Part shown: positions 28,928 through 44,067 of the stretch, in pieces
How positions within the stretch are numbered: position 1 is the stretch's first letter
How the letters are laid out: each line of letters begins with the position of its first letter
DNA from: an uncultured Selenomonas sp.
Lineage (GTDB): Bacteria; Bacillota; Negativicutes; Selenomonadales; Selenomonadaceae
DNA: 48,040 bases
Reading direction: 5' to 3'
Assembly (NCBI GenBank): GCA_902766095.1
Contig: CACXCN010000066.1
Location: 1 to 48,040, forward strand
Notes under the pieces: generated by a model
Seen by the model: the letters and a program-made list of their open reading frames with translations, nothing else
Database searches by the model: none
What the model was told of the DNA's origin: nothing
Position numbers and translations under genes: made by a program

Positions 28928-28978
28928 GTCTGGCTGAATCCTGATGGCTTATTTTCCCTGCGAGAGTTGGTTGGTTTG

Positions 28979-28987
28979 TGCTAGAAT
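28979..28987 (+). promoter_or_regulatory. Extended -10 promoter of recQ
   Basis: TGC followed by TAGAAT (28982-28987) gives an extended -10 element 22 bases before the recQ start. No good -35 is seen, as is common for extended -10 promoters. Confidence 0.45.
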
Positions 28988-29009
28988 AGTATCATCAGGA
29001 GGATTACGC

Positions 29010-30812
29010 ATGTCAATTGATTCGTACTATGGTGAGGCGCTGAGCCTGCTGCGCAAATATTATGGATACAAGGAATTCCGTCCGGCACAGGCACCGGTCA
29101 TAAAGAGCCTGCTCGCGGGGCATGATACCTTGGCGGTCATGCCTACGGGAGCAGGGAAATCCATCTGTTTCCAGATACCGGCCCTCATATTCCCGGGGCT
29201 GACGATCGTCATCTCGCCACTCATCTCGCTCATGAAGGATCAGGTCGATCAGCTCGCTGATGCGGGGATTGCGGCGACATTCATCAACAGCACGCTGACG
29301 CTCGATGAGAGCCGCGCGCGTATGGAGGCGATCCGGTCGGGGCGCTGCCGTATCGTCTACATAGCACCGGAGCGCCTGTCGGCAGGCTATTTTCAGTCGG
29401 TCATCGGGCAGGTGCCGGTGTCTATGGTCGCCGTCGATGAGGCGCACTGCATATCGCAATGGGGCCATGATTTCCGGCCGAGCTATCGCGAGATCGCGCC
29501 CTTTATCGCGAGCCTGCCACAGCGGCCGCTCGTCGGTGCCTTTACGGCGACGGCTACGCCTGCCGTCCAGCGGGATATCATCAGCCTGCTGGCGCTTGCG
29601 CGGCCGGACATCCATGTCTCGGGATTCGACCGGCCGAACCTGTACTACGAGGTGCGCCGGGGCGAGAACAAGAAGCGCTTCGTCGAGCGCTATCTGAAGC
29701 AGCATACCGATGAATCGGGCATCATCTATGTCGCGACGCGCAAGGAGGCGGATTCCCTGTACAGCCAGTTCAAGCGCAAGAAATTGTCGGTAGCCCGCTA
29801 CCATGCCGGCCTTTCCGATAAGGAGCGGGCCAAGGCTCAGGATGATTTCGTCAACGATAATGTGGCGGCGATCATAGCCACGAACGCCTTCGGCATGGGT
29901 ATCGATAAATCGAATGTGCGCTATGTCATACACTACAATATGCCGAAGAATATCGAGTCGTACTATCAGGAGGCCGGCAGGGCCGGGCGCGACGGCGAGC
30001 CGAGCTCGTGCATATTGCTGTATTCGCCGCAGGACGACATCACGCAGAAATACCTCATCGATGTCTCGACGGAGGATCCGGAGCGCAAGGCGCATCAGCT
30101 CGCCTGCCTGCAGAAGATGGTCGATTACTGCCACACGCCAGGCTGCCTGCGCGAGTACCTCGTCGGCTATTTCGGCGGCGGGCTCGACGGCTATGCGGAT
30201 TCCCATCACTGCGATAACTGCGGCAACTGCAATTCGGGGTTTGATAATATCGATGTCACCATCGATGCGCAGAAGGTATTCTCGTGCGTCTATCGCATGC
30301 ATGAGCGCTTCGGCGTGTCGCTCATCGCGCAGGTGCTCTGCGGTGCGAATACTCAGCGCGTCCGCGAGCTGCACTTTGATGAGCTGTCGACGTATGGACT
30401 TTATCGCGGCCAGTCTCAGGAGCAGATCAAGGATATGATTCGTCGCTTCATCGCGACGGACTATCTGACATTGACTGCGGATAAATATCCGGTCGTCCAT
30501 CTGGCCCCTCTCGCGATACCTGTATTGCGTGGCGAGGCCAAGGTGTTCCAGGCCGTGCCGCCGACGGTGAAGAAGGTAGAGGACGAGACGACGAGCTCGA
30601 CGTTGTTCGAGGCCCTGCGCAGTCTGCGCAAGCAGCTTGCTGATGAGGCTGGCGTACCGCCTTATGTTGTATTCTCGAACGCGACGCTGCGCAGCATGTG
30701 CGAGGTCAGGCCGACGAACGAGGACGAATTCCTCGAGGTCAGCGGCGTGGGCGAGACAAAGCTGGTGCGCTACGGGCAGGCGTTCCTCGAATGCATCAAG
30801 GAGAATGCCTGA
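29010..30812 (+). CDS. recQ: ATP-dependent DNA helicase RecQ
   Basis: RecQ unwinds DNA 3' to 5' in recombination repair. The 600-residue protein has motif I MPTGAGKS, motif II DEAHCISQWGHDFRPSY, motif III FTATATP, motif VI QEAGRAGRDG, the zinc-binding cysteines (CLREYL...CDNCGNC), a winged helix (RQC) and a C-terminal HRDC domain (about 520-600, ending VSGVGETKLVRYGQAFL). The ATG at 29010 follows CAGGAGG; the open frame extends 22 codons upstream over the promoter. It is the last intact core gene before a decayed zone. Confidence 0.96.
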   Translation: MSIDSYYGEALSLLRKYYGYKEFRPAQAPVIKSLLAGHDTLAVMPTGAGKSICFQIPALIFPGLTIVISPLISLMKDQVDQLADAGIAATFINSTLTLDESRARMEAIRSGRCRIVYIAPERLSAGYFQSVIGQVPVSMVAVDEAHCISQWGHDFRPSYREIAPFIASLPQRPLVGAFTATATPAVQRDIISLLALARPDIHVSGFDRPNLYYEVRRGENKKRFVERYLKQHTDESGIIYVATRKEADSLYSQFKRKKLSVARYHAGLSDKERAKAQDDFVNDNVAAIIATNAFGMGIDKSNVRYVIHYNMPKNIESYYQEAGRAGRDGEPSSCILLYSPQDDITQKYLIDVSTEDPERKAHQLACLQKMVDYCHTPGCLREYLVGYFGGGLDGYADSHHCDNCGNCNSGFDNIDVTIDAQKVFSCVYRMHERFGVSLIAQVLCGANTQRVRELHFDELSTYGLYRGQSQEQIKDMIRRFIATDYLTLTADKYPVVHLAPLAIPVLRGEAKVFQAVPPTVKKVEDETTSSTLFEALRSLRKQLADEAGVPPYVVFSNATLRSMCEVRPTNEDEFLEVSGVGETKLVRYGQAFLECIKENA

Positions 30813-31216: not shown

Positions 31217-31255
31217 ATTATATGAATTTTGAAAAACGGATACGGGGGTGTAAGC

Positions 31256-31465
31256 ATGGAGCTTCGTGTGCTGAAATATTTTCTGGCCGTGGCGCGGCAT
31301 CAGAACATCACGCGGGCAGCCGAGGAGCTGCATCTGACGCAGGCCGGCCTGTTTCTCAAGGCGCGTGCGGAAGAGATGACGACACTGGAGGCCAAGACGC
31401 TCGACCAGTTCGCGCATATGGAGGACTTCGTTGCTGGTGATGTCTACTTGGGCTGTGGTGATGTT
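31256..31465 (+). pseudogene. LysR-family regulator remnant with internal deletion
   Basis: The first 29 codons match a LysR N terminus (MELRVLKYFLAVARHQNITR, AAEELHLTQ). The next residues expected (P-T-L-S-R-Q and the recognition helix, then about 20 more) are missing; the frame resumes with GLFLKARAEEM and EDFVAGDVYLGCG, which belong after the HTH. Everything past the start of the effector domain is lost. The open frame runs on to 31573 but reads into the next remnant out of its frame. A ribosome site (GGGGGTG) and start are intact, so a short peptide could still be made. Confidence 0.75.
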
Positions 31466-31484
31466 CAGCGAGGAGTATATCACT

Positions 31485-31809
31485 ATGAAGACAAAGAAAT
31501 TCTGGCGTCATTTGCTTTTGATGTCCGCTCTGGGAACGGTGCTGGCTGTCGGCGGTCAGGGAATGGCTGCTGAAGCTCATGAACATGCCGCTGCTCACCT
31601 ACGCCAGCGAGATCGAGAGTTCGGTGCTTGTCATTCACGGTGAGAAAGCCCATTCGCGCTATTTCAGCGAGACAGCGTTCAAGAAGCTCAAGGGCGATAA
31701 CAAGGAACTGCTGATTGTCCCAGGAGCCGTCCATACCGACCTTTACGACAACATGGAGAAAATCCCGTTCGACGAGATAACGGCGTTCTTCCAGAAGTAC
31801 CTGCAGTAA
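31485..31809 (+). pseudogene. Exported alpha/beta hydrolase remnant (internal deletion and frameshift)
   Basis: ATG 31485 with a GAGGAG site begins a signal peptide (MKTKKFWRHLLLMSALGTVL, ending MAAEA). Within about 15 codons the homology jumps to another frame, where residues such as VLVIHGEKAHSRYFSETAF and LLIVPGAVHTDLYDNMEKIP form the C-terminal end of an alpha/beta hydrolase, including the region with the catalytic His. The nucleophile elbow and the core of the enzyme are missing. Only the two ends survive. Confidence 0.75.
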
Positions 31810-31835
31810 ATCATTTCGTTATACACTGACGCATT

Positions 31836-31878
31836 CCCCGGACGGGGCAGTAATAAGCTGCTCCGTCCGGGGATTTTT
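31836..31878 (+). terminator. Rho-independent terminator after hydrolase remnant
   Basis: CCCCGGACGGGGCAG (31836-31850) pairs with CTGCTCCGTCCGGGG (31858-31872) over 15 positions with one G-U, followed by ATTTTTG. It is well preserved although the gene before it has decayed. Confidence 0.93.
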
Positions 31879-31918: not shown

Positions 31919-31947
31919 TTCACAAAACAGACGATTTAGAGTATAAT
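31919..31947 (+). promoter_or_regulatory. Sigma-A promoter of the CsgG/FlgT-like operon
   Basis: TTCACA (31919-31924), a 17-bp spacer and a perfect TATAAT (31942-31947) lie 44 bases before the first gene of the four-gene operon. Confidence 0.7.
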
Positions 31948-31990: not shown

Positions 31991-32905
31991 ATGTTGAAAA
32001 GAATTTGTCTGATGGGATGTGTGCTGGGAGCGATGCTCACCGGCATGGCGGGAATGGCGGCCGCGCAGGTGGTCACGGCAGACGGCGTAGGAGCCTCGGA
32101 AATCCTGGCTCTGCGCGACGCGAAGCGGGCGGCTATCGAGGAGGTCATGGGCAGTGCGATCAAATCGGAGACGGTCGTGCAGAATGGTGCCGTGACCAGC
32201 GACAACATATGGGCACGGACGCAGGGATTTGCAAAGAATGTGAAGATACTGCAGCGCTCTCAGGCCGGTGGGCTCTGGCGGGTTCGCGCCAGCATCGATG
32301 TCGGCGAGCGCCCGGGACTGGCCTCTGGTCATGCGACGCTCGGGGTTCCGGCTTTCAATCTCAATGGCCTGCTCTCACCCGAACAGGGGTGGAGTCGTGA
32401 CGAACTGCAGGTGGTCGATGATTTCGCGGTACAGCATCTGCAGGATACGGGCCGGTTCGTGCTGTTGGACCGCACACGTTTGCAGGAGATAGAGGCTGAG
32501 CGCAACCGGGCCCTGGCCAGCGGCGGCAATCTGGCTCTGCAGGTAGGCTCGGGCAGCATACAGGGCGCGCAGTACCTGGTATTCGGCACTGTGCTGGGGG
32601 TGACTACCAGACGCAGCGAGACGACGGTCGTGGGAGCAGGTACGAAGCGGGCCGGCGTGCATGCCAGTGTCAGCCTGCGCATCGTGGACGTAGAGACGGG
32701 AGCTATTGTCACGTCGGCCATAGGCCGCAACCGGCAGGTCAATCATCTGGTAAAGGCACCACTGGGCCTGGTACGTATCGGTACGGATGAGGTTGACAAG
32801 GAGCAGGTGCTCTGCGCCATAGAGGGAGCCGTAGACGATGCAGTGAACGGGCCGCGCGGTCTGATGGCGCGTATCGATGGTCGGACAGCCACCACGAAGA
32901 AATGA
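31991..32905 (+). CDS. Exported FlgT-N/CsgG-like protein (operon gene 1)
   Basis: The 304-residue protein has a signal peptide (about 1-25, ending MAAAQ). Residues about 27-105 follow the FlgT N-terminal/LPP20 pattern: an Ala-rich first helix (LALRDAKRAAIEEVMGSAI), then TVVQNGAVTSDNIWARTQGF and a final strand WRVRASIDVG. Residues about 112-290 resemble CsgG/LpoB/TolB-N folds: ELQVVDDFAVQHLQDTGRF, VLLDRTRLQEIEAERNRAL, GAQYLVFGTVLGV and SLRIVDVETGAIVTSAIGR. An early C10 (LMGC) is too near the N terminus for a lipobox. It is probably periplasmic or outer-membrane associated. It heads a four-gene operon. Confidence 0.7.
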   Translation: MLKRICLMGCVLGAMLTGMAGMAAAQVVTADGVGASEILALRDAKRAAIEEVMGSAIKSETVVQNGAVTSDNIWARTQGFAKNVKILQRSQAGGLWRVRASIDVGERPGLASGHATLGVPAFNLNGLLSPEQGWSRDELQVVDDFAVQHLQDTGRFVLLDRTRLQEIEAERNRALASGGNLALQVGSGSIQGAQYLVFGTVLGVTTRRSETTVVGAGTKRAGVHASVSLRIVDVETGAIVTSAIGRNRQVNHLVKAPLGLVRIGTDEVDKEQVLCAIEGAVDDAVNGPRGLMARIDGRTATTKK

Positions 32906-32915
32906 GGTGATTGGC

Positions 32916-33761
32916 ATGCACGGTGTAATCAGATGGAGATGGCTATGGAGCGTATTCGGCATCAGCCTGCTGCTGGTGTCGGGATGCGTGAGCGGCGAGG
33001 CTGCCGGGCTGTTCGCGAACCACAGTGGCTCCCAGATATATCTGGCCGAGGTGCAGAGCTATGGTGAGAGTGAGCTGAAGCCCGATTATCAGGCGACGCT
33101 GGCGGATAAGATAGCCGATCAGCTGCGTCAGAAGGGCCTGAGCGTCAGCGCCGCTCTCGATGTGACGAACGAATCCGGCCGCCATGATGCCATCGGTACA
33201 GCGGGCGACCAGGCCGCGTTATCCGAGATACACATGGATGCGATCATTCACGGTCATACCTTTGATCGCGGTTATGCTGCTCCGAAGCTGGCCCATTATG
33301 CCGATCAGACACTCGGGCGGGCGTATTTCCATGATGAGGCCCGGATAGAGAACTGGCAGAAATCCAATGTTCCCTACAGGCTGGGGAGCAAATGCCAGGC
33401 GGAAGCAGAGCGCATAGCGGCAGCGCGAGGGGCGCAAATGCTGTTGTTCGTCAACATACGGGATGTCGATGTCCGCCTGAAGCACAGCATATTCGCCTCG
33501 CATACGGACAAGGATACGCGCGGCAAGAAGCTGATGACCCAGCTTGACTACTATATCTGGGATGCCCGGTCCGGACGCGTATATGAGGGTACCAGTGAGA
33601 TAAAGAAGACCGCCCAGCTGGTGAATTTCGGCCTGGGCCAGGGCGGCAAGGGTATGGATATCGATGTGCTTGTGAATGTGGTGATGGATGCGCAGGCCAA
33701 GAAGCTGGCTGATGACCTGATGAAGCAGGGATTGCCAGCGCTGCGGGGCGGTGCGTCATGA
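32916..33761 (+). CDS. Lipoprotein, CsgG/TolB-N-like (operon gene 2)
   Basis: The 281-residue product carries a clear lipobox (LLLVSGC, Cys24), so it should be lipid-anchored, and in a diderm probably sorted to the outer membrane. The mature part resembles the TolB-N/CsgG style: IYLAEVQSYGESELKPDYQ, TLADKIADQLRQKGLSVSAA, ALSEIHMDAIIHGHTFDRGY, LLFVNIRDVDVRLK, and YYIWDARSGRVYEGTSEIKK near the end. The ATG at 32916 has GAGGTGA 5 bases upstream. Its stop overlaps gene 3 (ATGA). No named family recognised. Confidence 0.72.
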   Translation: MHGVIRWRWLWSVFGISLLLVSGCVSGEAAGLFANHSGSQIYLAEVQSYGESELKPDYQATLADKIADQLRQKGLSVSAALDVTNESGRHDAIGTAGDQAALSEIHMDAIIHGHTFDRGYAAPKLAHYADQTLGRAYFHDEARIENWQKSNVPYRLGSKCQAEAERIAAARGAQMLLFVNIRDVDVRLKHSIFASHTDKDTRGKKLMTQLDYYIWDARSGRVYEGTSEIKKTAQLVNFGLGQGGKGMDIDVLVNVVMDAQAKKLADDLMKQGLPALRGGAS

Positions 33762-34405
33762 GCGCCAGGAACATCGGCGGGGTCCTGTTGCTGGCAGGGT
33801 TCCTCCTGCTAGGCGGAGTATTGTTGAGCGGAGGGGCGCCCTTTGGCCCGTCATACGGTGAGGCGGCGGACCGGGCGACAGCTGTGGTGAGCTTCTCGAG
33901 CCGCCTGGCCAAGAGCAGTATCACTTCCACCGATATCAGCGAGGATATGATACGCGGTGTCCAGGACGTGGCGCGGGAGGAATTCTATGCTGACATCGTT
34001 GACTGTCCGAAGCTGGTATTGATTGATCAGGCGACGCAGGCACAACAGATAGCGGAACAGCATCGCGCGGAACTGGACACCGGCAGTGCCAGCCCCGGGG
34101 AGCGCCTCCAGGCTGACTATGAGCTGCAGGGCTTCGTGACCATGCTCAGCAATGTCAAGGCACAGAGCGGAGTACTTATGCTCTCCGGCAAGGACAAGAC
34201 GGTCTATGTCGAGCTCAGCCTGCGGGTCATCGACAGGAAAACCGGGATGGTGGTATTCACGGCTACGGCGGACTCGCGTCGCAAGAGCGAGTTATCGTAT
34301 CATGCGGTCGTGCATCGGGCCGACAGCGGTCTCGATGACGCGGTGGAGCAGGCTGTCAGCGACGCGGTGAGAAATCTGGCGGCTGATCTGCTGCAGGCAA
34401 TGTAG
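33758..34405 (+). CDS. Exported CsgG/LpoB-like protein (operon gene 3)
   Basis: The 215-residue protein begins with a hydrophobic signal or anchor (GGVLLLAGFLLLGGVLLSGG). The rest carries the same trace as genes 1 and 2: ATAVVSFSSRLAKSSITSTD, DMIRGVQDVAREEFY, KLVLIDQATQAQQIAEQHRA, ELSLRVIDRKTGMVVFTATA and a C-terminal helix (VEQAVSDAVRNLAADLLQAM). It overlaps gene 2 by four bases, which suggests coupled translation and fixed stoichiometry. No named family recognised. Confidence 0.7.
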   Translation: MSARNIGGVLLLAGFLLLGGVLLSGGAPFGPSYGEAADRATAVVSFSSRLAKSSITSTDISEDMIRGVQDVAREEFYADIVDCPKLVLIDQATQAQQIAEQHRAELDTGSASPGERLQADYELQGFVTMLSNVKAQSGVLMLSGKDKTVYVELSLRVIDRKTGMVVFTATADSRRKSELSYHAVVHRADSGLDDAVEQAVSDAVRNLAADLLQAM

Positions 34406-34441: not shown

Positions 34442-35749
34442 TTGCGCAAGCTGACGATGAGCCTGATGACCGGGGCGCTGCTGGCGGGGATGCTTTACCA
34501 TGCAGCGCCAGTGGCGGCACATGGCAATATCTGGATGGACGAGGGGAAGAATATCACGGCGGCAGAGAGCAAGGATTTCGTGCCCGTTACGAAATTCAGG
34601 AAGATACTGGTCTTCCCGATCAGCCGGCCAGGAAGCCATGATGGCGACCCCGATGATCTGACCGACCTGAACGATATGTTCAACAAACGCGTGAATAAAC
34701 GCATACACAAGACGAATTTTCTGCGTTTCCGCTCCCGGAGTGATGCGCAGATGGCGGACAAAGAGCTGGAGAAGAATCACATCTTGCGCCCGAAAGAGGG
34801 ACTGAACCGGCTATTGCAGCACTATCCCAGCGAGCAGGAACGGGCCAGGGATGTCTACGATCTGACAGGGGCCGAAGGATTCCTGCTGCCTCATATCCGC
34901 TTTGTCAAGATGAGGGAAGATGTGTCTCCGGCTACATGGACCCGTGTCACCATGACCTCGTACTATGATGAAGAGGACGGACCTAAGGGCGACCGCAGTG
35001 GATTAGGGAAGCATGTATGGACAGCAGATCACCTCATCCCCAGGATGACGAATACCCTATGCATGGTGGATATGGATTTCACGCTCTATGATACGGCAAG
35101 CCAGAGGAAGACGATGACTCTGATTGATTATTATCGCTGCTATAACGTCGACTATGACCACGCATTCAATCAGATATTCAAGAATTTTACGGGCGACTGG
35201 AAACGCCTGAAGGATGATGCGTCAAGCCAGGCTCCGGCTGGAGCTCCGACAATCGGTTTCACCAATCTGCGTCTGCCGGCCTCAGCCTCGAACAATGAAT
35301 TCTCCATCAAGACCATATACTATGCATACAAGGATGAGGCCGAAGACACATTGAAGAACCTGCGCCCCGATTTTGCGCCCGGTGGGGGCAGATACTACGT
35401 GCGCGGCACACTGACGAACTATGACCGAGGTCAGACATGGAATCCTCCGACGGCTTCGACGAGTATCTACCTGGATCACACGGAGACCTTCAAATGGAGG
35501 GATTCCAAGGGGGACGAGCATACGGGGAAGCGGAAGTATTATAAGACGGAGATCACAGACTATGCGGGCTGCTACACTTTCTGGTACAGTGCTGCGGCTG
35601 ATTTGCAGGTCGTCGATCGCCGGACGGGGACGGTGGTCTTTTCCCACAGCTACGAGGCCTATGATCCGGAGCGCTATGCCAATGCGCTGCGGCGGATATT
35701 TGGCGATTTCTACCGCGATGTCGACAAAAGATTGGGCAGCCAGATCTGA
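34442..35749 (+). CDS. Exported protein with two similar halves (operon gene 4)
   Basis: The 435-residue protein starts at TTG 34442 (GGATGAGGGA upstream) and has a signal peptide (about 1-26, ending PVAA). Two halves seem related to each other and to genes 1-3. Half one (about 50-265) has KILVFPISRP, GAEGFLLPHIRFVKM, MDFTLYDTASQRKTMTLIDY and AFNQIFKNFTGDWKRLKDD. Half two (about 270-435) has TIGFTNLRLP, RYYVRGTLTNY, ADLQVVDRRTGTVVFSHSYE and ALRRIFGDFYRDVDKRLGS. In both, a strand with a D-x-x-T turn is followed by a closing helix. No named family recognised. Confidence 0.7.
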   Translation: MRKLTMSLMTGALLAGMLYHAAPVAAHGNIWMDEGKNITAAESKDFVPVTKFRKILVFPISRPGSHDGDPDDLTDLNDMFNKRVNKRIHKTNFLRFRSRSDAQMADKELEKNHILRPKEGLNRLLQHYPSEQERARDVYDLTGAEGFLLPHIRFVKMREDVSPATWTRVTMTSYYDEEDGPKGDRSGLGKHVWTADHLIPRMTNTLCMVDMDFTLYDTASQRKTMTLIDYYRCYNVDYDHAFNQIFKNFTGDWKRLKDDASSQAPAGAPTIGFTNLRLPASASNNEFSIKTIYYAYKDEAEDTLKNLRPDFAPGGGRYYVRGTLTNYDRGQTWNPPTASTSIYLDHTETFKWRDSKGDEHTGKRKYYKTEITDYAGCYTFWYSAAADLQVVDRRTGTVVFSHSYEAYDPERYANALRRIFGDFYRDVDKRLGSQI

Positions 35750-35834: not shown

Positions 35835-38153
35835 ATGGGAACCGATAAAGCATCATTATCCGAAGAGGATATCAAGCATCGCTACATCACACCGGCACTG
35901 GAGCGCGTCTGGCGGCCGACAGACATCCGCATGGAGTTGCCCATCACGGCGGGGCGTGTCAATATCAAGGGAAACATGGAGTCGCGGGAGCGGCCGAAGT
36001 TTGCCGACTACGTTCTGTATACGCCCTCGGGCTATCCACTGGCCATCGTCGAGGCGAAGGATAATACGCATACCGTTTCGTTCGGTTTGCAGCAGGCGAA
36101 GACGTATGCGGAGATGATGGATATCCAGTTTGCCTACAGCTCGAACGGCGATGCCTTTGTCGAATATGATTTTCTGACCGGCATCGAGCGCGAGCTGCCG
36201 CTCGATGCATTCCCGACACCAGAGGAGCTCATGGCCAGGCTCCGGCAGGAAGGCCATCTGACGGAGAAGCAGATCAAGGTCATCGAGCAGCCATTCTATC
36301 TGTCAGAAAGCACATATGCGCCGCGCTACTATCAGCGTGTCGCTGTCGACCGCACGCTCGACGCGATCGCTCGCGGCCAGCAGCGTCTGCTGCTCGTCAT
36401 GGCAACCGGCACCGGCAAGACATACACGGCGTTCCAGATCATCTACCGCCTGCGTCAGGCGGGACTGAAGCGCAAGATCCTCTACCTCGCCGACCGCAAT
36501 ATCCTGCTCGACCAGTCCATCCAGCAGGATTTCCGTCCGCTGACAAATGTCATCCACAAGATCAGCTATGCCGCCGACGAACGCACGACCATCACTGCTT
36601 ACGAGGTCTATTTCTCCCTCTACCAGCAGCTTTTCGGCGAGGATGACGAGGAGCGCTTCCGTGAGCTCTTTGATCCCGATTTCTTCGACCTCGTCGTCGT
36701 CGACGAGTGCCATCGCGGCTCCGCAAAGGCTGACAGCCGCTGGCGCAAGATTCTCGACTACTTCCGCTCGGCCACTCAGATCGGCATGACCGCCACGCCG
36801 AAGGAGACGGCGTACGTCTCCAACATCGACTATTTCGGCGAGCCGGTCTACACATACAGCCTGCGGCAGGGCATCGACGATGGCTTCCTCGCGCCGTTCC
36901 GCGTCATCAATGTACAGACGAATATCGGCGACGGCTGGCGGCCGCGCAAGGGACAGCGTGATTTCTTCGGTCAGGAGATCGAGGATCGCATCTATAACAA
37001 TACAGATTACGACTATCATATCGTCCTCGAGGACCGCATCCGCGAAGTCGCCGCGCGCGTCACGACCTACCTGCGGCATACCGACCGCATGGCCAAGACC
37101 ATCGTCTTCTGCGCCGACGAGCCTGCGGCGGAGCGCATGCGCCATGCTCTCGCGCAGCAGAACGCCGACATGATGAAGAAATACCCGAACTACGTCGTGC
37201 GCATCACGGGCAGCGATCCCTATGGCAAAAGCCAGCTCGGCTATTTCATCTCCGTCTCCTCGCCGACGCCGGTCATCGCTACGACCTCGCAGCTCCTGTC
37301 GACCGGCGTCGATTGCAAGATGGTCAAGCTCATCGTCCTCGACGAGAACATCGCCTCGATGACCATGTTCAAGCAGATCATCGGTCGCGGGACGCGTCTG
37401 CGCTATGAAGACGGCAAGCGCAGCTTCGTCATTATGGACTTCCGCGGCGTCACGCGCCTCTTCGCCGATCCGGACTGGGACGGCCCCCTCATCGAGGACC
37501 CCGGCTACAGCACCGGGGAGGGAGGCGGCGAGCCGCGAGGTGGCAGGAAGGGCGGCGGCAAGGGCGGTGGCAAGCCGGCCAGCAAGCCCTATGTGCGCGC
37601 CGACGGCTGCCAGGTCTATACCGTGCAGGAGACCGTCTCCGTCTACGACACCGGCGGCAAGCTCCTGCAGCAGGAGAACATCATCGACTATACGAAGGAG
37701 AATATCCTCGGCCAGTTCGGGGACCTTCACGCCTTCATCCACGAGTGGAACGCTGCGGCGAAGAAGCAGGCCATCGCCGATGCTCTCGCGGAGCGCGGCA
37801 TCGATCTCGACAAGCTCAAGCAGACGATGAATATGGCCGATGTCGACGACTTCGATTTCATCTGTCATGTCGCCTACGACCAGAAACCTCTGACGCGCCG
37901 CGAGCGCGCCGAGGGTGTGCGGAAACGCGACTTCCTGAGCCGGTACAGCGGCGACGCCCGCGCCGTCCTCGAGACACTGCTCGACAGCTACAAGGATCTT
38001 GGCATCAAGGACATCGAAAAGACCGACGTGCTCCGCATGAAGGACTTCCAGAAATTCGGCAAACCGGGGCGCATCGCCAAGCTTTTCAACGGCAAGAAAG
38101 GCTACGAGGAAGCGGTGCGTGCCCTCGAACAAGAACTCTACAAGGCAGGTTAA
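35835..38153 (+). CDS. hsdR: Type I restriction endonuclease subunit R
   Basis: HsdR translocates DNA and cuts unmodified molecules far from the recognition site. The 772-residue protein has an N-terminal nuclease fold (FADYVLYTPSG, then IVEAKDN with the E-x-K active site), SF2 helicase motifs (Walker A MATGTGKTYTAF, DECHRGS, TATP, QIIGRGTRLRYEDG) and a C-terminal helical region for binding M. A Gly/Arg-rich stretch (about 556-580) links the helicase and C-terminal parts. GAGAGGTGAT lies before the ATG. hsdM starts 6 bases after its stop. Confidence 0.95.
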   Translation: MGTDKASLSEEDIKHRYITPALERVWRPTDIRMELPITAGRVNIKGNMESRERPKFADYVLYTPSGYPLAIVEAKDNTHTVSFGLQQAKTYAEMMDIQFAYSSNGDAFVEYDFLTGIERELPLDAFPTPEELMARLRQEGHLTEKQIKVIEQPFYLSESTYAPRYYQRVAVDRTLDAIARGQQRLLLVMATGTGKTYTAFQIIYRLRQAGLKRKILYLADRNILLDQSIQQDFRPLTNVIHKISYAADERTTITAYEVYFSLYQQLFGEDDEERFRELFDPDFFDLVVVDECHRGSAKADSRWRKILDYFRSATQIGMTATPKETAYVSNIDYFGEPVYTYSLRQGIDDGFLAPFRVINVQTNIGDGWRPRKGQRDFFGQEIEDRIYNNTDYDYHIVLEDRIREVAARVTTYLRHTDRMAKTIVFCADEPAAERMRHALAQQNADMMKKYPNYVVRITGSDPYGKSQLGYFISVSSPTPVIATTSQLLSTGVDCKMVKLIVLDENIASMTMFKQIIGRGTRLRYEDGKRSFVIMDFRGVTRLFADPDWDGPLIEDPGYSTGEGGGEPRGGRKGGGKGGGKPASKPYVRADGCQVYTVQETVSVYDTGGKLLQQENIIDYTKENILGQFGDLHAFIHEWNAAAKKQAIADALAERGIDLDKLKQTMNMADVDDFDFICHVAYDQKPLTRRERAEGVRKRDFLSRYSGDARAVLETLLDSYKDLGIKDIEKTDVLRMKDFQKFGKPGRIAKLFNGKKGYEEAVRALEQELYKAG

Positions 38154-38159
38154 TACGAT

Positions 38160-39632
38160 ATGGCAACAAATCTAGGCGGACTCGTCAAAAGACTCCAGGA
38201 CATCATGAGGAGCGACCCCGGTATCAATGGCGATGCCCAGCGCATCGAGCAGATCATCTGGGCGCTTTTCCTCAAGGTCTACGATGCCAAGGAAGAAGAC
38301 TGGGAGATGGACGAGGACGACTACCAGTCCGTCATCCCTGAGCAATACCGCTGGCAGAACTGGGCGCACGATGACGGCAAGGGCACGGTGCTGACGGGCA
38401 AGGAGCTGTTAGATTTCGTCAACGACCTCTTCGACACGCTCAAAGATCTCCCCATCACGCCCGGCATGCCGAGGAAGAAGCGCATCGTCCGGACGATGTT
38501 CGAGGAGACGAACCAGTACATGAAAGACGGCGTGCTGCTGCGCCAGGTCATCAACGTCATCGACGATATCGACCTCGAGAGCTACGAGAACCTGCACGCC
38601 CTCGGCGACATCTACGAGACAATCCTGAAGGAACTCCAGTCGGCCGGCCGGGCCGGCGAATTCTACACGCCGCGTGCCGTCACGGACTTCATGGCTGACC
38701 GCATCGAGCCGCGCCTCGGCGAGAAAATGGCGGACTTCGCCTGCGGCACGGGCGGCTTCCTCGTCAGCTGGCTGCGCGAGCTCGAGAAGCAGGTCCGGAC
38801 GCCTGACGACCGCGCCCTCTGGAACAACTCCGTCTACGGCATCGAGAAAAAGCAGTTCCCCTATATGCTCGCTATCACGAACCTCCTGCTCCACGACATC
38901 GACAACCCGAACATCGACCATGGCAACAGCCTGCTCCACGACGTCCTCGACTACACCGAAAAGGACAAGTTCGACAAGGTCCTAATGAATCCTCCATACG
39001 GCGGCAGCGAGAAGAAAGACGTCATGAGCCATTTCCCTGACGACCTCGCCGACAGCGAGACCGCCGATCTGTTCATGAGCGTCATCCTCTACCGGCTCAA
39101 AGAGGGCGGCCGTGCGGCTGTCGTCCTGCCGGACGGATTCCTCTTCGGTACGGACAATACGAAAGTCAATATCAAGAAGAAGCTCATGGCGGAGTGCGAC
39201 CTGCACACGATCATCCGCCTGCCCGGCAGCGTATTCGCACCGTACACGAGCATCACGACGAATATCCTCTTCTTCGACCGCACGCATCCGACGGAGCAGA
39301 CCTGGTTCTACCGCCTCGACATGCCAGAGGGTTACAAGCACTTCAGCAAGACGAAGCCCATGCGCCTCGAGCATTTCGCGCCCGTCAAGGAATGGTGGGA
39401 TGACCGTCAGGAAATCATCGAAGACGGATTCCCGAAGGCGAAATGCTACACGGCTGAGGAAATCGCCGCCGGCGGCTACAACCTCGACCTCTGCGGCTTC
39501 CCGCATGAGGAGGAGGAAATCCTCGAGCCCCTCGACCTCATCCAGAAATACCAAGAGCAGCGCCAGTCCCTGAACGAGAAGATCGACACCATCCTCGCCC
39601 GCATCACGGCCAAGCTGGAGGAAAACGCATGA
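38160..39632 (+). CDS. hsdM: Type I DNA methyltransferase subunit M
   Basis: HsdM adds a methyl group to N6 of adenine at the site chosen by HsdS. The 490-residue protein has an N-terminal helical domain (about 1-150), SAM-binding motif I DFACGTGGF, the catalytic motif IV NPPY (KVLMNPPYGG), and GRAAVVLPDGFLFG. The C-terminal tail is helical and contacts S. Its last four bases overlap hsdS (ATGA). Confidence 0.97.
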   Translation: MATNLGGLVKRLQDIMRSDPGINGDAQRIEQIIWALFLKVYDAKEEDWEMDEDDYQSVIPEQYRWQNWAHDDGKGTVLTGKELLDFVNDLFDTLKDLPITPGMPRKKRIVRTMFEETNQYMKDGVLLRQVINVIDDIDLESYENLHALGDIYETILKELQSAGRAGEFYTPRAVTDFMADRIEPRLGEKMADFACGTGGFLVSWLRELEKQVRTPDDRALWNNSVYGIEKKQFPYMLAITNLLLHDIDNPNIDHGNSLLHDVLDYTEKDKFDKVLMNPPYGGSEKKDVMSHFPDDLADSETADLFMSVILYRLKEGGRAAVVLPDGFLFGTDNTKVNIKKKLMAECDLHTIIRLPGSVFAPYTSITTNILFFDRTHPTEQTWFYRLDMPEGYKHFSKTKPMRLEHFAPVKEWWDDRQEIIEDGFPKAKCYTAEEIAAGGYNLDLCGFPHEEEEILEPLDLIQKYQEQRQSLNEKIDTILARITAKLEENA

Positions 39633-41053
39633 ACGCACAAGACCTCAGAAACAGCATCCTCCAGCGCGCCATCGAGGGAAAGCTCGTGCCGCAAAGAGAC
39701 GAAGAGGGCACATCGAAAGAACTCCTGCAAGAAATCCGCGCCGAGAAAGCAAGGCTCATCAAGGAAAAGAAAATCAAGAAGACCAAGCCCCTGCCCGCCA
39801 TCACCGAGGATGAAAAGCCGTTTGAACTTCCCGAAAGCTGGGAGTGGGTACGGCTAGGGGAAATCTTCTTCCTACAAGCAGGCAGGAATATAAAAGCGGC
39901 AGAAATAAATGTTGAATCAACAGAATCATATCAATATCCTTGTTATGGAGGAAATGGCATTAGAGGCTTTGTCAAATTCTTCAATGCAGAAGGTGATTTT
40001 CCGATAATTGGTAGACAAGGTGCACTTTGTGGAAATATAAATCGTGCCACAGGAAAATTCTATGCAACGGAACATGCGGTACTTACTCACACATTCGCTA
40101 GCACAGATGTTTCTTGGGCATGTTATTTTTTAACGGCATTGAATTTGAATCAATATGCGACAGCTACGGCTCAGCCCGGGTTAGCTGTTAGCAAAATCAA
40201 CCATGTCCTGATTCCCCTTCCCCCGCTTGCCGAGCAGAAGCGCATTGTCGCCAAGATTGAAACGTTCCTGCCCGACCTTGCGGCCTACGACGACGCACAG
40301 ACCGAGCTCCACACGCTCACACAGCGCTTCCCCGACGACATGAAAAAGAGCCTGCTCCAATACGCGATCGAGGGAAAGCTCGTGCCACAGCGAGCCGAGG
40401 AGGGCACGGCGAAGGACCTGCTCCGCGAAATCCAGACCGAAAAGGCACGGCTCATCAAGGAAAAGAAAATCAAGAAAACCAAGCCCCTGCCCGCCATCAC
40501 CGACGACGAAAAGCCGTTTGACCTTCCCGAAAGCTGGGAGTGGGTGCGGTTGCAATCTATTTGCACAAAAATTATAGATGGTGACCATAATCCACCTGTG
40601 GGGATAGGTTGTGAAAGCAAATATTTGATGCTATCAGCACAAAATATTAATAATGATACTATCAATTTTGAACGTGTCCGGTATTTGGATGAAGAAACTT
40701 TCAAAAAAGAAGACTTGAGAACTAAAGCAACAAAAGGAGATATATTTTTTACGATTGTTGGAACTTTAGGTCGTAGTTGTGTATATGAAGGTGGCTCAAA
40801 TATTTGTTTTCAACGTAGTGTATCAGTAATAACTACACTGATATATAATTATTACTTAAAATATGTACTTGATTCATACTTTATCAGAAACTACATGGAA
40901 CTAAATGCGAAAGGGACAGCACAAAAGGGATTTTATCTAAAACAAGTAAATAACTTGTGTATTCCCCTTCCTCCTCTTGCCGAGCAGCACCGCATTGTCG
41001 CCCGTCTGGAGGAGTTGCTGCCTCTTTGCCAGCAACTTGATGCCCAGCCCTGA
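39629..41053 (+). CDS. hsdS: Type I specificity subunit S
   Basis: HsdS sets the bipartite DNA target. The 474-residue protein has two target-recognition domains (encoded by about 39856-40210 and 40552-40960), each followed by a conserved helical spacer with LPPLAEQKRIVAKIE or LPPLAEQHRIVARLE. Before each TRD stands a near-identical conserved block (AIEGKLVPQR..., KARLIKEKKIKKTKPLPAIT, LPESWEWVRL). The TRD DNA is strikingly AT-rich against GC-rich conserved parts, which points to exchange of TRDs by recombination. The target sequence cannot be predicted from this. Confidence 0.96.
   Translation: MNAQDLRNSILQRAIEGKLVPQRDEEGTSKELLQEIRAEKARLIKEKKIKKTKPLPAITEDEKPFELPESWEWVRLGEIFFLQAGRNIKAAEINVESTESYQYPCYGGNGIRGFVKFFNAEGDFPIIGRQGALCGNINRATGKFYATEHAVLTHTFASTDVSWACYFLTALNLNQYATATAQPGLAVSKINHVLIPLPPLAEQKRIVAKIETFLPDLAAYDDAQTELHTLTQRFPDDMKKSLLQYAIEGKLVPQRAEEGTAKDLLREIQTEKARLIKEKKIKKTKPLPAITDDEKPFDLPESWEWVRLQSICTKIIDGDHNPPVGIGCESKYLMLSAQNINNDTINFERVRYLDEETFKKEDLRTKATKGDIFFTIVGTLGRSCVYEGGSNICFQRSVSVITTLIYNYYLKYVLDSYFIRNYMELNAKGTAQKGFYLKQVNNLCIPLPPLAEQHRIVARLEELLPLCQQLDAQP
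39671..39855 (+). repeat. hsdS internal direct repeat, copy 1
   Basis: This 185-bp stretch matches 40367-40551 closely along its whole length with no gap. Long identical runs occur around the segment encoding KEKKIKKTKPLPAIT. Each copy ends exactly where a target-recognition domain begins. Confidence 0.9.
40367..40551 (+). repeat. hsdS internal direct repeat, copy 2
   Basis: Second copy of the 185-bp repeat at 39671-39855, 696 bp downstream. Recombination between the copies would delete or duplicate one target-recognition domain in frame, since 696 is a multiple of three. Confidence 0.9.
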
Positions 41054-41111: not shown

Positions 41112-41339
41112 GTTTGGAGCGGTGGCTGGGAAGACTCTCGGCTATGGCCGCTCGGGATAGCAGGGGCAGGCCGAATCTAATGAGGACTCCTGCAATTTAA
41201 TAAAAGCCTAATAGGCAGGACTGCCTACTCAAAAGATAGTGTTATAAGATATTCGCATCATATATTTTCATAGCGTTCAAATTAGTGTTAGTATATAGAT
41301 ATATTGATACATTGACGATACGGAGTGGGAGGATTGACC

Positions 41340-42917
41340 ATGAAAAGCAAGGGATATAGCTGGCGGCTGGCAACGCTTGTGGCGGGAGCGCTGCTGGCGT
41401 CGGGGCTATGGACAGCCTCTGCCGAGGCGGCAGACCTCTCGCTGGCCCAGGCCATAGAGATGGCACTGAGCCAGAATACGAGCCTGAAGGTAACGCAGAA
41501 GGCGGAGGACACGGCGGCAGCAGCACTGAAGGAGGCCAAGGGGAATAATGGGGCCTCCGTGGAAATTTCGGATGGCTTGTCGACTAGCAAGAAAAGTGGC
41601 AATCCTCATAAGGCTGGAAATTCGTTGAGCATCAGTGGTTCTTTACCGCTTTATACTGGCGGCAAGAATCAGGCCAATATCAAGCGGGCCGAGCTCGGCG
41701 TCGAGACGGCAGCGCTGACGACGGACCGCGAGCGTGAGAATGTGAAGCTCGATGTCGTACAGGCCTACTACAATGCACTCGAGGCGAAGAAAACCATCGA
41801 CGTCGATCAGGAGTCCGTCGACAACTACGAGGCCCACTATACGAATGTCAGCCAGCTGTACTCGGCCGGATCGAAAGCGCGCATCGATGTGCTGCGTTCG
41901 AGCGTCGAGCTCTCGAATGCCCGCCAGACGCTTATCAAGGCTCAGAATGCCTACGAGGTCGACATCGCGAAGCTTCGCAATCTGCTGAACATCGATCGCT
42001 CGGAGCCGCTGAACCTCACGACGGATTTCAGCTATGACAAGTTCGATATCGATATGGACTCATGCATCGCCTATGCCTATCGCAATCGCAAGGATTTGCT
42101 CGTCGACCAGTACAACCTTGATCGGGCCGAGCTGGCCGTCACTGCGGCCAAGGCCGGGTTCAAGCCGACGCTGAGTCTGTCCCTAGGCGCGGGACAGAAC
42201 AATAATTTCAATCCGAACAGCACGTCCTCACAGGATGTGTCGGCCGGCATCACCGCCAGCTGGAACGTATTCGACAGCGGTGTGACCAAAGCAGAGGTGC
42301 AGGCAGCGGAGGCAAGCCGCGACACGGCGAAGTTGAACCTGGTCAAGGATCAGGAGAATATCGACTATGCGCTGCGGCAGGCATACTATAATATGCGTGA
42401 AGCCGAGAAAAGGTTCAACTCGACCGGGGATGCTGTGAATCAGGCTGAGGAGGACTACTATATAGCGCGAGAGAAGTACCGCGCGGGCGAAGGGCTGATG
42501 CTCGACATCATCGATGCCCAGCTGGCGCTCTCGCAGGCTAAGCTGAACTACATCAGCGCGCAATATGACTACGCCCGGTATAAAGCGGAAGTCGAAAATG
42601 TCATGGGCATGGGCCTGAATGACAGCGAGAACCAGGCCGCCCGTCTGCTGTCCGCTGATGCCGAGGCGGCACTGCAGTCTTCGCCAGCGGCCAAAGTGAC
42701 GGGCCAGCCGCAGTCGGTACCCGAGGCGAAACCGACAGCTGCTAAAACGTCAGCAAAGGCGAAAAAGGCCAAGAAGGCCAAGCGTACAGCCAAAGAGCAG
42801 ACAGCTGCGGCAGCGACAACGCCTACAACGACTACAGCAGCTGCAGCAGCCAGAACGACGAACGCGACTGGCAGCGAAAGCGCGCAGGACGTAGCGCGAG
42901 ATGCAGCGCGGAGCTGA
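41340..42917 (+). CDS. TolC-family outer-membrane efflux protein
   Basis: The 525-residue protein forms the outer-membrane duct of a tripartite efflux pump. It has a signal peptide (about 1-28, ending AEAA), then two TolC repeats (LSLAQAIEMALSQNTSLKV, LDVVQAYYNALEAKK, VSQLYSAGSKARIDVLRSSV; second: DSCIAYAYRNRKDLLVDQYN, ALRQAYYNMREAEK, YIAREKYRAGEGLMLDIIDA). After the family core (about residue 430) there is a long low-complexity tail rich in Lys, Thr and Ala. The ATG at 41340 follows GGGAGG by 7 bases. The first of four genes in a MacAB-type operon. Confidence 0.93.
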   Translation: MKSKGYSWRLATLVAGALLASGLWTASAEAADLSLAQAIEMALSQNTSLKVTQKAEDTAAAALKEAKGNNGASVEISDGLSTSKKSGNPHKAGNSLSISGSLPLYTGGKNQANIKRAELGVETAALTTDRERENVKLDVVQAYYNALEAKKTIDVDQESVDNYEAHYTNVSQLYSAGSKARIDVLRSSVELSNARQTLIKAQNAYEVDIAKLRNLLNIDRSEPLNLTTDFSYDKFDIDMDSCIAYAYRNRKDLLVDQYNLDRAELAVTAAKAGFKPTLSLSLGAGQNNNFNPNSTSSQDVSAGITASWNVFDSGVTKAEVQAAEASRDTAKLNLVKDQENIDYALRQAYYNMREAEKRFNSTGDAVNQAEEDYYIAREKYRAGEGLMLDIIDAQLALSQAKLNYISAQYDYARYKAEVENVMGMGLNDSENQAARLLSADAEAALQSSPAAKVTGQPQSVPEAKPTAAKTSAKAKKAKKAKRTAKEQTAAAATTPTTTTAAAAARTTNATGSESAQDVARDAARS

Positions 42918-42930
42918 TGGAGGCAAGTAA

Positions 42931-44067
42931 ATGATAAAGCTTAATTTCAAGGCAAAGATCGCCATAGCGCTCATAGCCATAGCCGGCTGCGCTTTCGGCG
43001 GCTACAAGTACTACGAAAGCCAGCAGTCGGCGAAACAGGCAGCCGCGGTGCAGACCGTAGCGGTCACGCGCATGAACATGAAGTCTACGGTATCGGCGAC
43101 CGGTACGATCAAACCGGTCGACTCCGTCGAGATCAGCTCGAAGGTGACGGCCCGTATCAAGGAAATACCGGTTCATGAAAATGATGAAGTCAAAGCGGGA
43201 CAGACGGTCTGCCTGCTCGATGGCTCCGACCTCGAGGCTCAGCGCGACCAGGCCTCCTATCAGGTCACGCATACGCGCGCTGCTTATAATCGCGTCAGCT
43301 ACCTTTACAGCATAGGCGCGGATACCCAGCAGCAGCTCGAGGACGCCCAGTATGAGTACGATACCGCGGTATCGAAGCTCTCCGAAGCGCAGACCGATAT
43401 GAACGAGACGGTCATCACCTCGCCGATGGACGGTATCGTCGTCGGTGAGCCGAAGACGGTAGGTACGATGGCGCGCACCGGCGATAATCCTACGGTCATC
43501 ATGCGTATCGCGGATCTCTCCGCGAAGCAGATCCAGGCCAAGATCGATGAAACGGATATCGGCAACGTCAAAGTCGGTCAGGAAGCGACGTTCACAGTCG
43601 ATGCCTATACGGACAAGAAATTTACAGCTCGTGTCACGAAAATATCCAAGACCGATACCGGCAATACCTGGGATACGACGGACTCCAGCTCCAGCTCATC
43701 ATCGTCCTCCTCGGCCAGTGTCATCTACTACTACGTGACGCTCGATGTCGACGATCCGGACAATGTACTGCTGCCAGCCATGACCGCGCGCGTAGAGATC
43801 AATACGGCGGACAAGTCGGATGTACTGGCCCTGCCGATATCGACGCTCAAGACGGATGCGAATGGCTCCTATGTCATGGTAAAGAATGCAGATGGCAGTC
43901 AGGAGCGCCGGGCGGTAGAGACTGGCATATACAGTGATGAATATGTAGAGATCGTATCGGGACTCGACGAAGGCGAGGAAGTTGTCTCCAGCTATACGGC
44001 TACCAAGAAAACAAGCAGCAAAAATAGCAACAGGAATGGCGGTGGCCCTGGCGGACCTCCGATGTAA
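42931..44067 (+). CDS. macA: MacA-like periplasmic adaptor protein
   Basis: The 378-residue membrane-fusion protein links the inner-membrane MacB to TolC. It has an N-terminal membrane anchor (AKIAIALIAIAGCAFGGYKY), the biotinyl-lipoyl halves (VSATGTIKPVDSVEISSKV and ITSPMDGIVVGEPKTVGTMA), a short coiled hairpin, the beta-barrel domain, and a C-terminal Gly/Pro tail (NGGGPGGPPM). An unusual run of ten serines (about 251-260) interrupts the beta-barrel domain. GGAGG lies upstream of the ATG, 13 bases after tolC. Confidence 0.92.
   Translation: MIKLNFKAKIAIALIAIAGCAFGGYKYYESQQSAKQAAAVQTVAVTRMNMKSTVSATGTIKPVDSVEISSKVTARIKEIPVHENDEVKAGQTVCLLDGSDLEAQRDQASYQVTHTRAAYNRVSYLYSIGADTQQQLEDAQYEYDTAVSKLSEAQTDMNETVITSPMDGIVVGEPKTVGTMARTGDNPTVIMRIADLSAKQIQAKIDETDIGNVKVGQEATFTVDAYTDKKFTARVTKISKTDTGNTWDTTDSSSSSSSSSSASVIYYYVTLDVDDPDNVLLPAMTARVEINTADKSDVLALPISTLKTDANGSYVMVKNADGSQERRAVETGIYSDEYVEIVSGLDEGEEVVSSYTATKKTSSKNSNRNGGGPGGPPM

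Follow-up and report, generated by a model that had tools for sequence, protein, structure and literature searches.

Gene 4, the fourth gene of an operon in a gut or rumen bacterium (an uncultured Selenomonas sp.), encodes a secreted protein in which one domain occurs twice, a repeat of which we are practically certain. In the predicted structure both halves display the PelC/CsgG/FlgT-middle/TolB-N fold, and the operon as a whole very probably contains five copies of it. The window, i.e. the whole stretch of 48,040 nucleotides that was analysed, carries the four genes on the + strand, with gene 4 listed last at 34442-35749. Signal peptides were called by eye wherever a hydrophobic N terminus and an A-x-A site were seen. 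Promoter-like sites of the quality seen upstream of gene 1 number 3, against 2.7 expected. The features are as follows.

31835..31873, + strand: terminator-like hairpin (17-pair stem and T run) upstream of the operon; consensus match only
31919..31947, + strand: promoter-like TTCACA-17-TATAAT (11/12) upstream of gene 1; consensus match only
31991..32905, + strand: gene 1, 304 aa; signal peptide, FlgT_N-like part (residues 36-104), CsgG domain (residues 113-285); fold copy 1
32877..33761, + strand: gene 2, 294 aa; fold copy 2, predicted from an AlphaFold model and profile matches
33758..34405, + strand: gene 3, 215 aa; fold copy 3, predicted from hhalign to gene 1
34442..35749, + strand: gene 4, 435 aa, TTG start; secreted tandem double-domain protein
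34523..35236, + strand: gene 4 N half, residues 28-265; predicted fold copy 4
35084..35116, + strand: LYDTASQRKTM, strand-turn-strand of the N half, residues 215-225
35153..35215, + strand: closing helix of the N half, residues 238-258 (AlphaFold model)
35237..35746, + strand: gene 4 C half, residues 266-435; predicted fold copy 5
35609..35641, + strand: VVDRRTGTVVF, strand-turn-strand of the C half, residues 390-400
35675..35737, + strand: closing helix of the C half, residues 412-432 (AlphaFold model)

Starting 85 bases past gene 4, a type I restriction-modification set occupies positions 35835-41053 (+) of the window and comprises HsdR (772 aa), HsdM (490 aa) and HsdS (474 aa, with two specificity stretches). 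The operon and this set are flanked by a recQ side and an efflux pair (OEP, HlyD), at 28944-30812 and 41325-44067 of the window, and in loci L036 and L044 the operon likewise lies near recQ/OEP/HlyD genes. A 114-aa ORF at 31229-31573 (+) with a partial LysR-type HTH (HTH_1 positions 1-29 of 60) is probably a gene remnant.

The repeat within gene 4 was examined by comparison of profiles of its halves. The first comparison, made on an earlier alignment, gave a probability of 6% and an E-value of 0.006; with the half profiles A7 and A8, each holding 32 of 39 aligned rows, hhalign gave 35%, E 4e-4 and 126 columns, and direct comparisons in all later runs remained at 35-39%. When the profiles were trimmed of gaps, the halves aligned colinearly over 127 columns with a score of 31.7, as compared to 25.5 for the best column shuffle (n=300), 27.2 for the best block shuffle (n=300) and 12.8 for the reversed profile, so that none of the 600 shuffles reached the score of the true alignment. 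Moreover, when 380 genomes of the class were searched with the C half, double proteins turned up together with many single-domain proteins. A profile of 10 of the latter, drawn from 12 loci with L088 (a split pair) and L089 (a double) set apart, matched the N half at 97.0%, with E 8e-11 and a score of 73.9, the best of 300 block shuffles scoring 32.5; these proteins had been recruited by the C half only, and their match to the C half (99.5%) therefore holds by construction. The search with the N half returned further single-domain proteins, most of which were matched by the C half too. The internal alignment of the halves is thus significant, both above the shuffles and through the single-domain relatives.

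The structure of gene 4 was predicted by AlphaFold from an alignment (A3) of 19 rows, namely the window and 18 copies from 17 of the 20 named loci; L050, L052 and L054 were left out and L038 contributed two copies. The model has a mean pLDDT of 84 and a pTM of 0.78, and contains predicted strands of up to 17 residues. Its N half consists of a strand (54-57), a helix (74-87), a strand (92-96), a helix (131-142), five strands within 146-234 and a helix (238-258); the C half consists of a strand (270-273), a helix (286-303), five strands within 318-408 and a helix (412-432). The same elements are paired by the profile alignment of the two halves. The predicted domain plan is a strand-helix-strand-helix start followed by five long antiparallel strands and one closing helix. 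A Foldseek search with the model returned CsgG, HpaA-type and FlgT chains as top PDB matches, with PelC lower, and VIA-align 2 was run on 997 of the Foldseek chains. In this comparison the N half aligns with PelC (5t0z_A, residues 28..258, Z 11.9, 3.1 A, 144 residues) and with FlgT of the LPHT ring (residues 51..260, Z 10.7). The C half aligns with CsgG (6lqh_A, residues 267..435, Z 11.6), PelC (5t11_D, residues 263..433, Z 11.6, 2.6 A, 116 residues), CT253 (Z 11.4), FlgT (3w1e, residues 265..435, Z 11.3, 16% identity over 132 residues) and the N-terminal domain of TolB (3iax, 2w8b and 1c5k, Z 9.8-9.1, 19% identity; Z 9.8 for 3iax). TolB carries a beta-propeller, which is without counterpart in the two alpha/beta domains of the gene 4 model. 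Entries of LptE, PqiC and LpoB are likewise found among the fold matches of genes 4 and 2. Both halves of the model are thus assigned to the same fold, and by the order of elements and the shared PDB matches the predicted halves have one topology.

At the sequence level, gene 4 matches 0 Pfam families, and CsgG (PF03783) is found in 0 of the 27 members of its alignment A1 at E<=0.01. DUF3313 is found in 2 of these 27 at the same threshold, below its own cut-off in the one inspected. No FlgT_N match is present in gene 4 by Pfam, which therefore shows no FlgT_N-FlgT_M-FlgT_C order. The search of solved structures by sequence gave no match for gene 4 or its profile and, for one relative of gene 4, a sole weak match to flightin; a search of NCBIfam gave nothing useful. 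The model thereby assigns a predicted fold to families that had none, gene 4, which has no Pfam match, and its single-domain relatives, of which those scanned have none above cut-off.

The initial annotation had put forward an internal duplication on the basis of a turn motif recurring in genes 1-4. All the strings quoted in it are found in place: besides the two strings of gene 4 given above, IVDVETGAIV lies at residue 231 of gene 1, VIDRKTGMVV at residue 157 of gene 3, and IWDARSGRVY in gene 2, with DARSG at residue 229. The two helices cited with them correspond to gene 4 residues ~239-256 and ~411-431. Outside the operon's quoted strings, the bare D-x-x-[TS]-[GSQ] pattern is found in 12 of 31 further likely genes in the window (15 occurrences in 12862 aa), and so common a motif could not by itself carry the repeat claim; what raises it above chance is its position in the structure and in the alignment. 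In the model the D-x-x-T-G turn forms, in both halves, the last beta-hairpin ahead of the closing helix: the turns connect strands 202-217 and 222-234 in the N half and strands 377-392 and 398-408 in the C half, and one long helix follows each of them. The half-versus-half profile alignment places turns and closing helices exactly opposite each other. As a sign of a shared domain, the motif thus holds through its place in the hairpin and fails when taken on its own.

The other genes of the operon carry the fold as well. By sequence, genes 1 and 3 are clear CsgG-type homologues: gene 1 matches Pfam CsgG at 1.2e-14 (54.6 bits versus a cut-off of 20.8) and FlgT_N at 0.079, under the cut-off, with both families above cut-off in its relative L042:237-1139. 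The profiles of genes 1 and 3 align at 98.4% (hhalign, E 7e-15, 160 columns), and CsgG is found in 10 of the 14 gene 3 rows (A5) at E<=0.01. For gene 2, an AlphaFold model built from 15 rows has a pLDDT of 74 and aligns by VIA-align with CT253 (Z 11.7), FlgT (Z 11.7), PelC (Z 10.5) and CsgG (Z 9.2). FlgT_M is present in 9 of the 15 gene 2 rows (A4) at E<=0.01, and hhalign relates gene 2 to gene 1 at 82% over 80 columns (65% on trimmed columns) and to gene 3 at 11-36%. Compared directly by hhalign, gene 4 aligned with genes 1-3 over short stretches only. With a pooled core of 45 rows, made of the gene 4 halves and the single-domain proteins, the match to gene 3 (74%, 48 columns) and that to gene 1 (31%, 33 columns) each exceed all 100 shuffles, and the match to gene 2 falls within them (6 of 100 as high). 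The link of gene 4 to genes 1-3 is therefore mainly one of fold. Common ancestry of all five copies is likely, with partial support from sequence; CsgG, TolB-N and DUF330 are placed in one Pfam clan in the source cited (PMC3173608). The proposed count of at least five domains is borne out by genes 1, 2 and 3 and the two halves of gene 4, and many relatives have a sixth in an upstream gene. The single ancestral domain suggested along with this count is supported mainly by the predicted fold, and by sequence, over short stretches, for genes 1 and 3 but not for gene 2.

Relatives of gene 4 were found in 54 of the 189 genomes of the window's family and relatives of gene 2 in 53. Both occur in 46 genomes, within 6 kb of each other in 39, and on different contigs in the other 7, five of which belong to one genus. 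Among named records, 20 gene 4 loci were collected, including those of Mitsuokella jalaludinii, M. multacida, Selenomonas ruminantium and S. ruminis; 15 of them have nearby relatives of genes 1, 2 and 3, and L045, L046, L051, L053 and L054 have none. L036, where the gene order is 2-4-3, and L038 each have a gene 1 relative of the type with FlgT_N. By co-occurrence and proximity, genes 1-4 look like one system; the 7 genomes with genes 4 and 2 on different contigs speak against this, and the Fisher test of the co-occurrence carries no correction for relatedness. Clustering of ORFs from 19 loci (the window and 18 others) revealed no conserved partner outside the operon, except among a few loci, so nothing in the neighbourhood indicates a substrate. 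A second cluster of secreted proteins adjoins the operon in L036:639-5826 and L042:4812-10057; its members include proteins with FlgT_N and with LPP20, along with others having no Pfam match. A search of the literature on CsgG in Selenomonas or Negativicutes, judged by title, returned nothing pertinent.

The single-domain secreted proteins, of ~190-280 aa, are spread across Negativicutes (L085, L086, L087, L090-L097 and L099-L104). Those of L085, L087, L097 and L102 are examples of sequence relatives of both gene 4 halves that carry one domain where gene 4 carries two. Most have a W-x-D motif right past the signal peptide, none of those scanned has a Pfam family above cut-off, and relatives of genes 1-3 were not found in the examined stretches of 12 of their loci.

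Operon neighbours are repeatedly fused, the N and C halves joined in gene 4 being one case. Genes 2 and 3 form a single 472-aa gene in L044, in which FlgT_M scores above cut-off, and in G005, G034, G165 and G173 the gene 2 and gene 3 matches fall in one open frame of 450-455 aa. The window, L042 and L044 have the FlgT_N part joined to CsgG within gene 1; in 12 other loci this part resides in a separate upstream gene of 288-402 aa (often ~370 aa), whose CsgG-like middle matches gene 3 at 76% and gene 1 at 51% by profile and which has a third part in 9 of the 12. Examples of this separate FlgT-like gene are L050:4650-5765 and L049:4651-5766, and it also stands beside Mitsuokella operons. These repeated fusions suggest contact between the products. 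In L038:7818-10528, two whole gene 4 copies stand in tandem, i.e. four domains in a row.

The doubled domain of gene 4 is firmly established, and the strict self-duplication first proposed shares the field with another origin, fusion of two adjacent and already diverged paralogous genes, to which we give an even chance. In L088:10364-11598 (-), from genome G042, an N-type gene (204 aa) is directly followed by a C-type gene (208 aa) with an overlap of ~1 base, and each is nearer to its own gene 4 half in the tree, which speaks for fusion, although this pair may also be a later split. In the tree built from 45 domain rows over 118 columns, the N halves form one group (100/98), which includes the N domains of L088 and L089, the C halves form another (91/50), and the single-domain proteins are placed between the two. 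For this second tree, 7 proteins were added from 10 loci, with L098 (a near copy), L105 (a double) and L106 (a fragment) omitted. Holding all N and C rows in one group costs 2.8 log units, and the AU test does not reject such a tree (p-AU 0.395, and 0.483 for the earlier tree); furthermore, the analysis is limited by its 118 columns and long branches, and recruitment of the single-domain rows by one half or the other biases their placement. With each half in its own group and the single-domain proteins possibly between them, fusion of paralogues and duplication within the gene are equally allowed. From the sequences, the doubling looks old and looks like a single event, the C group not being firmly supported. 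If gene 4 did arise by fusion, its present form and working would be unchanged.

What the operon does is approached here by analogy. PelC (5t0z, 5t10, 5t11, 9h80), a protein of Pel exopolysaccharide export with a fold like each gene 4 half, has one domain per chain and is described as a lipoprotein that forms on PelB a periplasmic ring of 12 subunits at the outer membrane (PMC12141448); gene 4 differs from it in having two domains and no lipobox, and would share the ring by analogy only. The Vibrio H ring is described as composed of FlgT, FlgO and FlgP (PMC7693769). From the analogy with PelC and the H ring, we infer, as the most likely reading, that the products of genes 1-4 reach the periplasm with no lipid anchor and may form, side by side, a hetero-oligomeric ring or collar on the periplasmic face of the outer membrane, serving in transport or as a scaffold. 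Gene 4 is a doubled (duplicated or fused) form of the single-domain secreted Negativicutes family, and linking adjacent subunits in a single chain would fix order and stoichiometry. This whole explanation, with the doubled PelC/CsgG/TolB-N protein and genes 1-3 as parts of a non-lipidated envelope ring, seems to us as probable as its negation, and the ring or collar at the outer membrane falls slightly short of that. Indeed, the fold alone does not imply a ring, since TolB, LptE, PqiC and LpoB also possess it; TolB is, in the source cited, not known to oligomerise (PMC3173608).

No conserved lipobox is present in the four proteins. With a simple pattern applied to the first 70 aa, a lipobox-like site occurs in 0 of 19 gene 4 rows, 1 of 12 gene 1 rows, 2 of 15 gene 2 rows (the window's own included) and 2 of 14 gene 3 rows. 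Lol genes are reported as absent in Negativicutes (PMC5491611), which fits proteins without lipid anchors. A more specific proposal is that Negativicutes build a lipid-free hetero-oligomeric ring in which five paralogous domains (six in many relatives) replace the one repeated lipoprotein of Proteobacteria, neighbours having been repeatedly fused and the lack of anchors being an adaptation to Lol-less envelopes; this we regard as speculative and would sooner bet against.

Other functions were weighed against the envelope ring. The products could, like the peptidoglycan synthase activator LpoB, regulate envelope enzymes from the periplasm and form no ring. Pfam LpoB weakly matches gene 1 (5.3e-5, above cut-off) and gene 3 (4.5e-4, below it), and LpoB 4q6z is among the gene 4 fold matches (Z 7.1); as the fold is that of CsgG and PelC, these matches do not discriminate, and five copies per operon with repeated fusions would better suit a multi-subunit assembly, which makes this role rather improbable.

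A flagellar accessory ring like the H ring is very unlikely. Genes 2 and 4 have FlgT among their best fold matches, both gene 4 halves and gene 2 having the fold of the FlgT middle domain (PF16539; 3w1e, 8z5n), and the upstream gene of relatives, with its FlgT_N part, CsgG-like middle and third part, would suit this role; FlgT_N moreover passes the cut-off in L036, and an LPP20 protein lies nearby in L042, FlgP being of LPP20 type. However, gene 4 differs from FlgT in having no FlgT_N part, and no FlhA match was found in 7 of the 54 genomes with gene 4, FlhA being found in 126 of the 135 without it. The operon is also carried by records of Mitsuokella, a genus not known to be motile, and the neighbours scanned with Pfam hold no flagellar structural gene beyond FlgT-type domains. 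The H ring was dropped as the main reading after this FlhA census.

A role for gene 1 as the CsgG pore of a curli-type amyloid exporter is disfavoured, as is the flagellar role, and is highly improbable: the strong CsgG match of gene 1 speaks for it, but CsgF, the partner searched, has 0 matches in the genome where the E. coli control was positive, and a lipobox-like site is seen in only 1 of 12 gene 1 rows. As for CsgG itself (PF03783; 6lqh, 4q79, 4uv2), genes 1 and 3 are its relatives in sequence and the C half of gene 4 matches its fold; gene 4 has neither a CsgG family match nor a lipobox. Finally, there is next to no chance that gene 4 holds no true repeat and that a common turn motif had been matched by eye, since the frequency of the bare motif and the low direct hhalign probability, which favour this, are outweighed by the shuffle controls, the single-domain relatives and the matching topology of the model.

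In known rings of this fold, mostly a single lipoprotein is present in some 9 to 12 copies, with ~9 subunits in the CsgG ring. If the envelope ring proposed here exists, an operon with five diverged copies, some fused in pairs, would offer a naturally occurring example of a symmetric ring that has become asymmetric. It would also inform the question of how diderm Firmicutes, which reportedly have no Lol sorting, place such parts.
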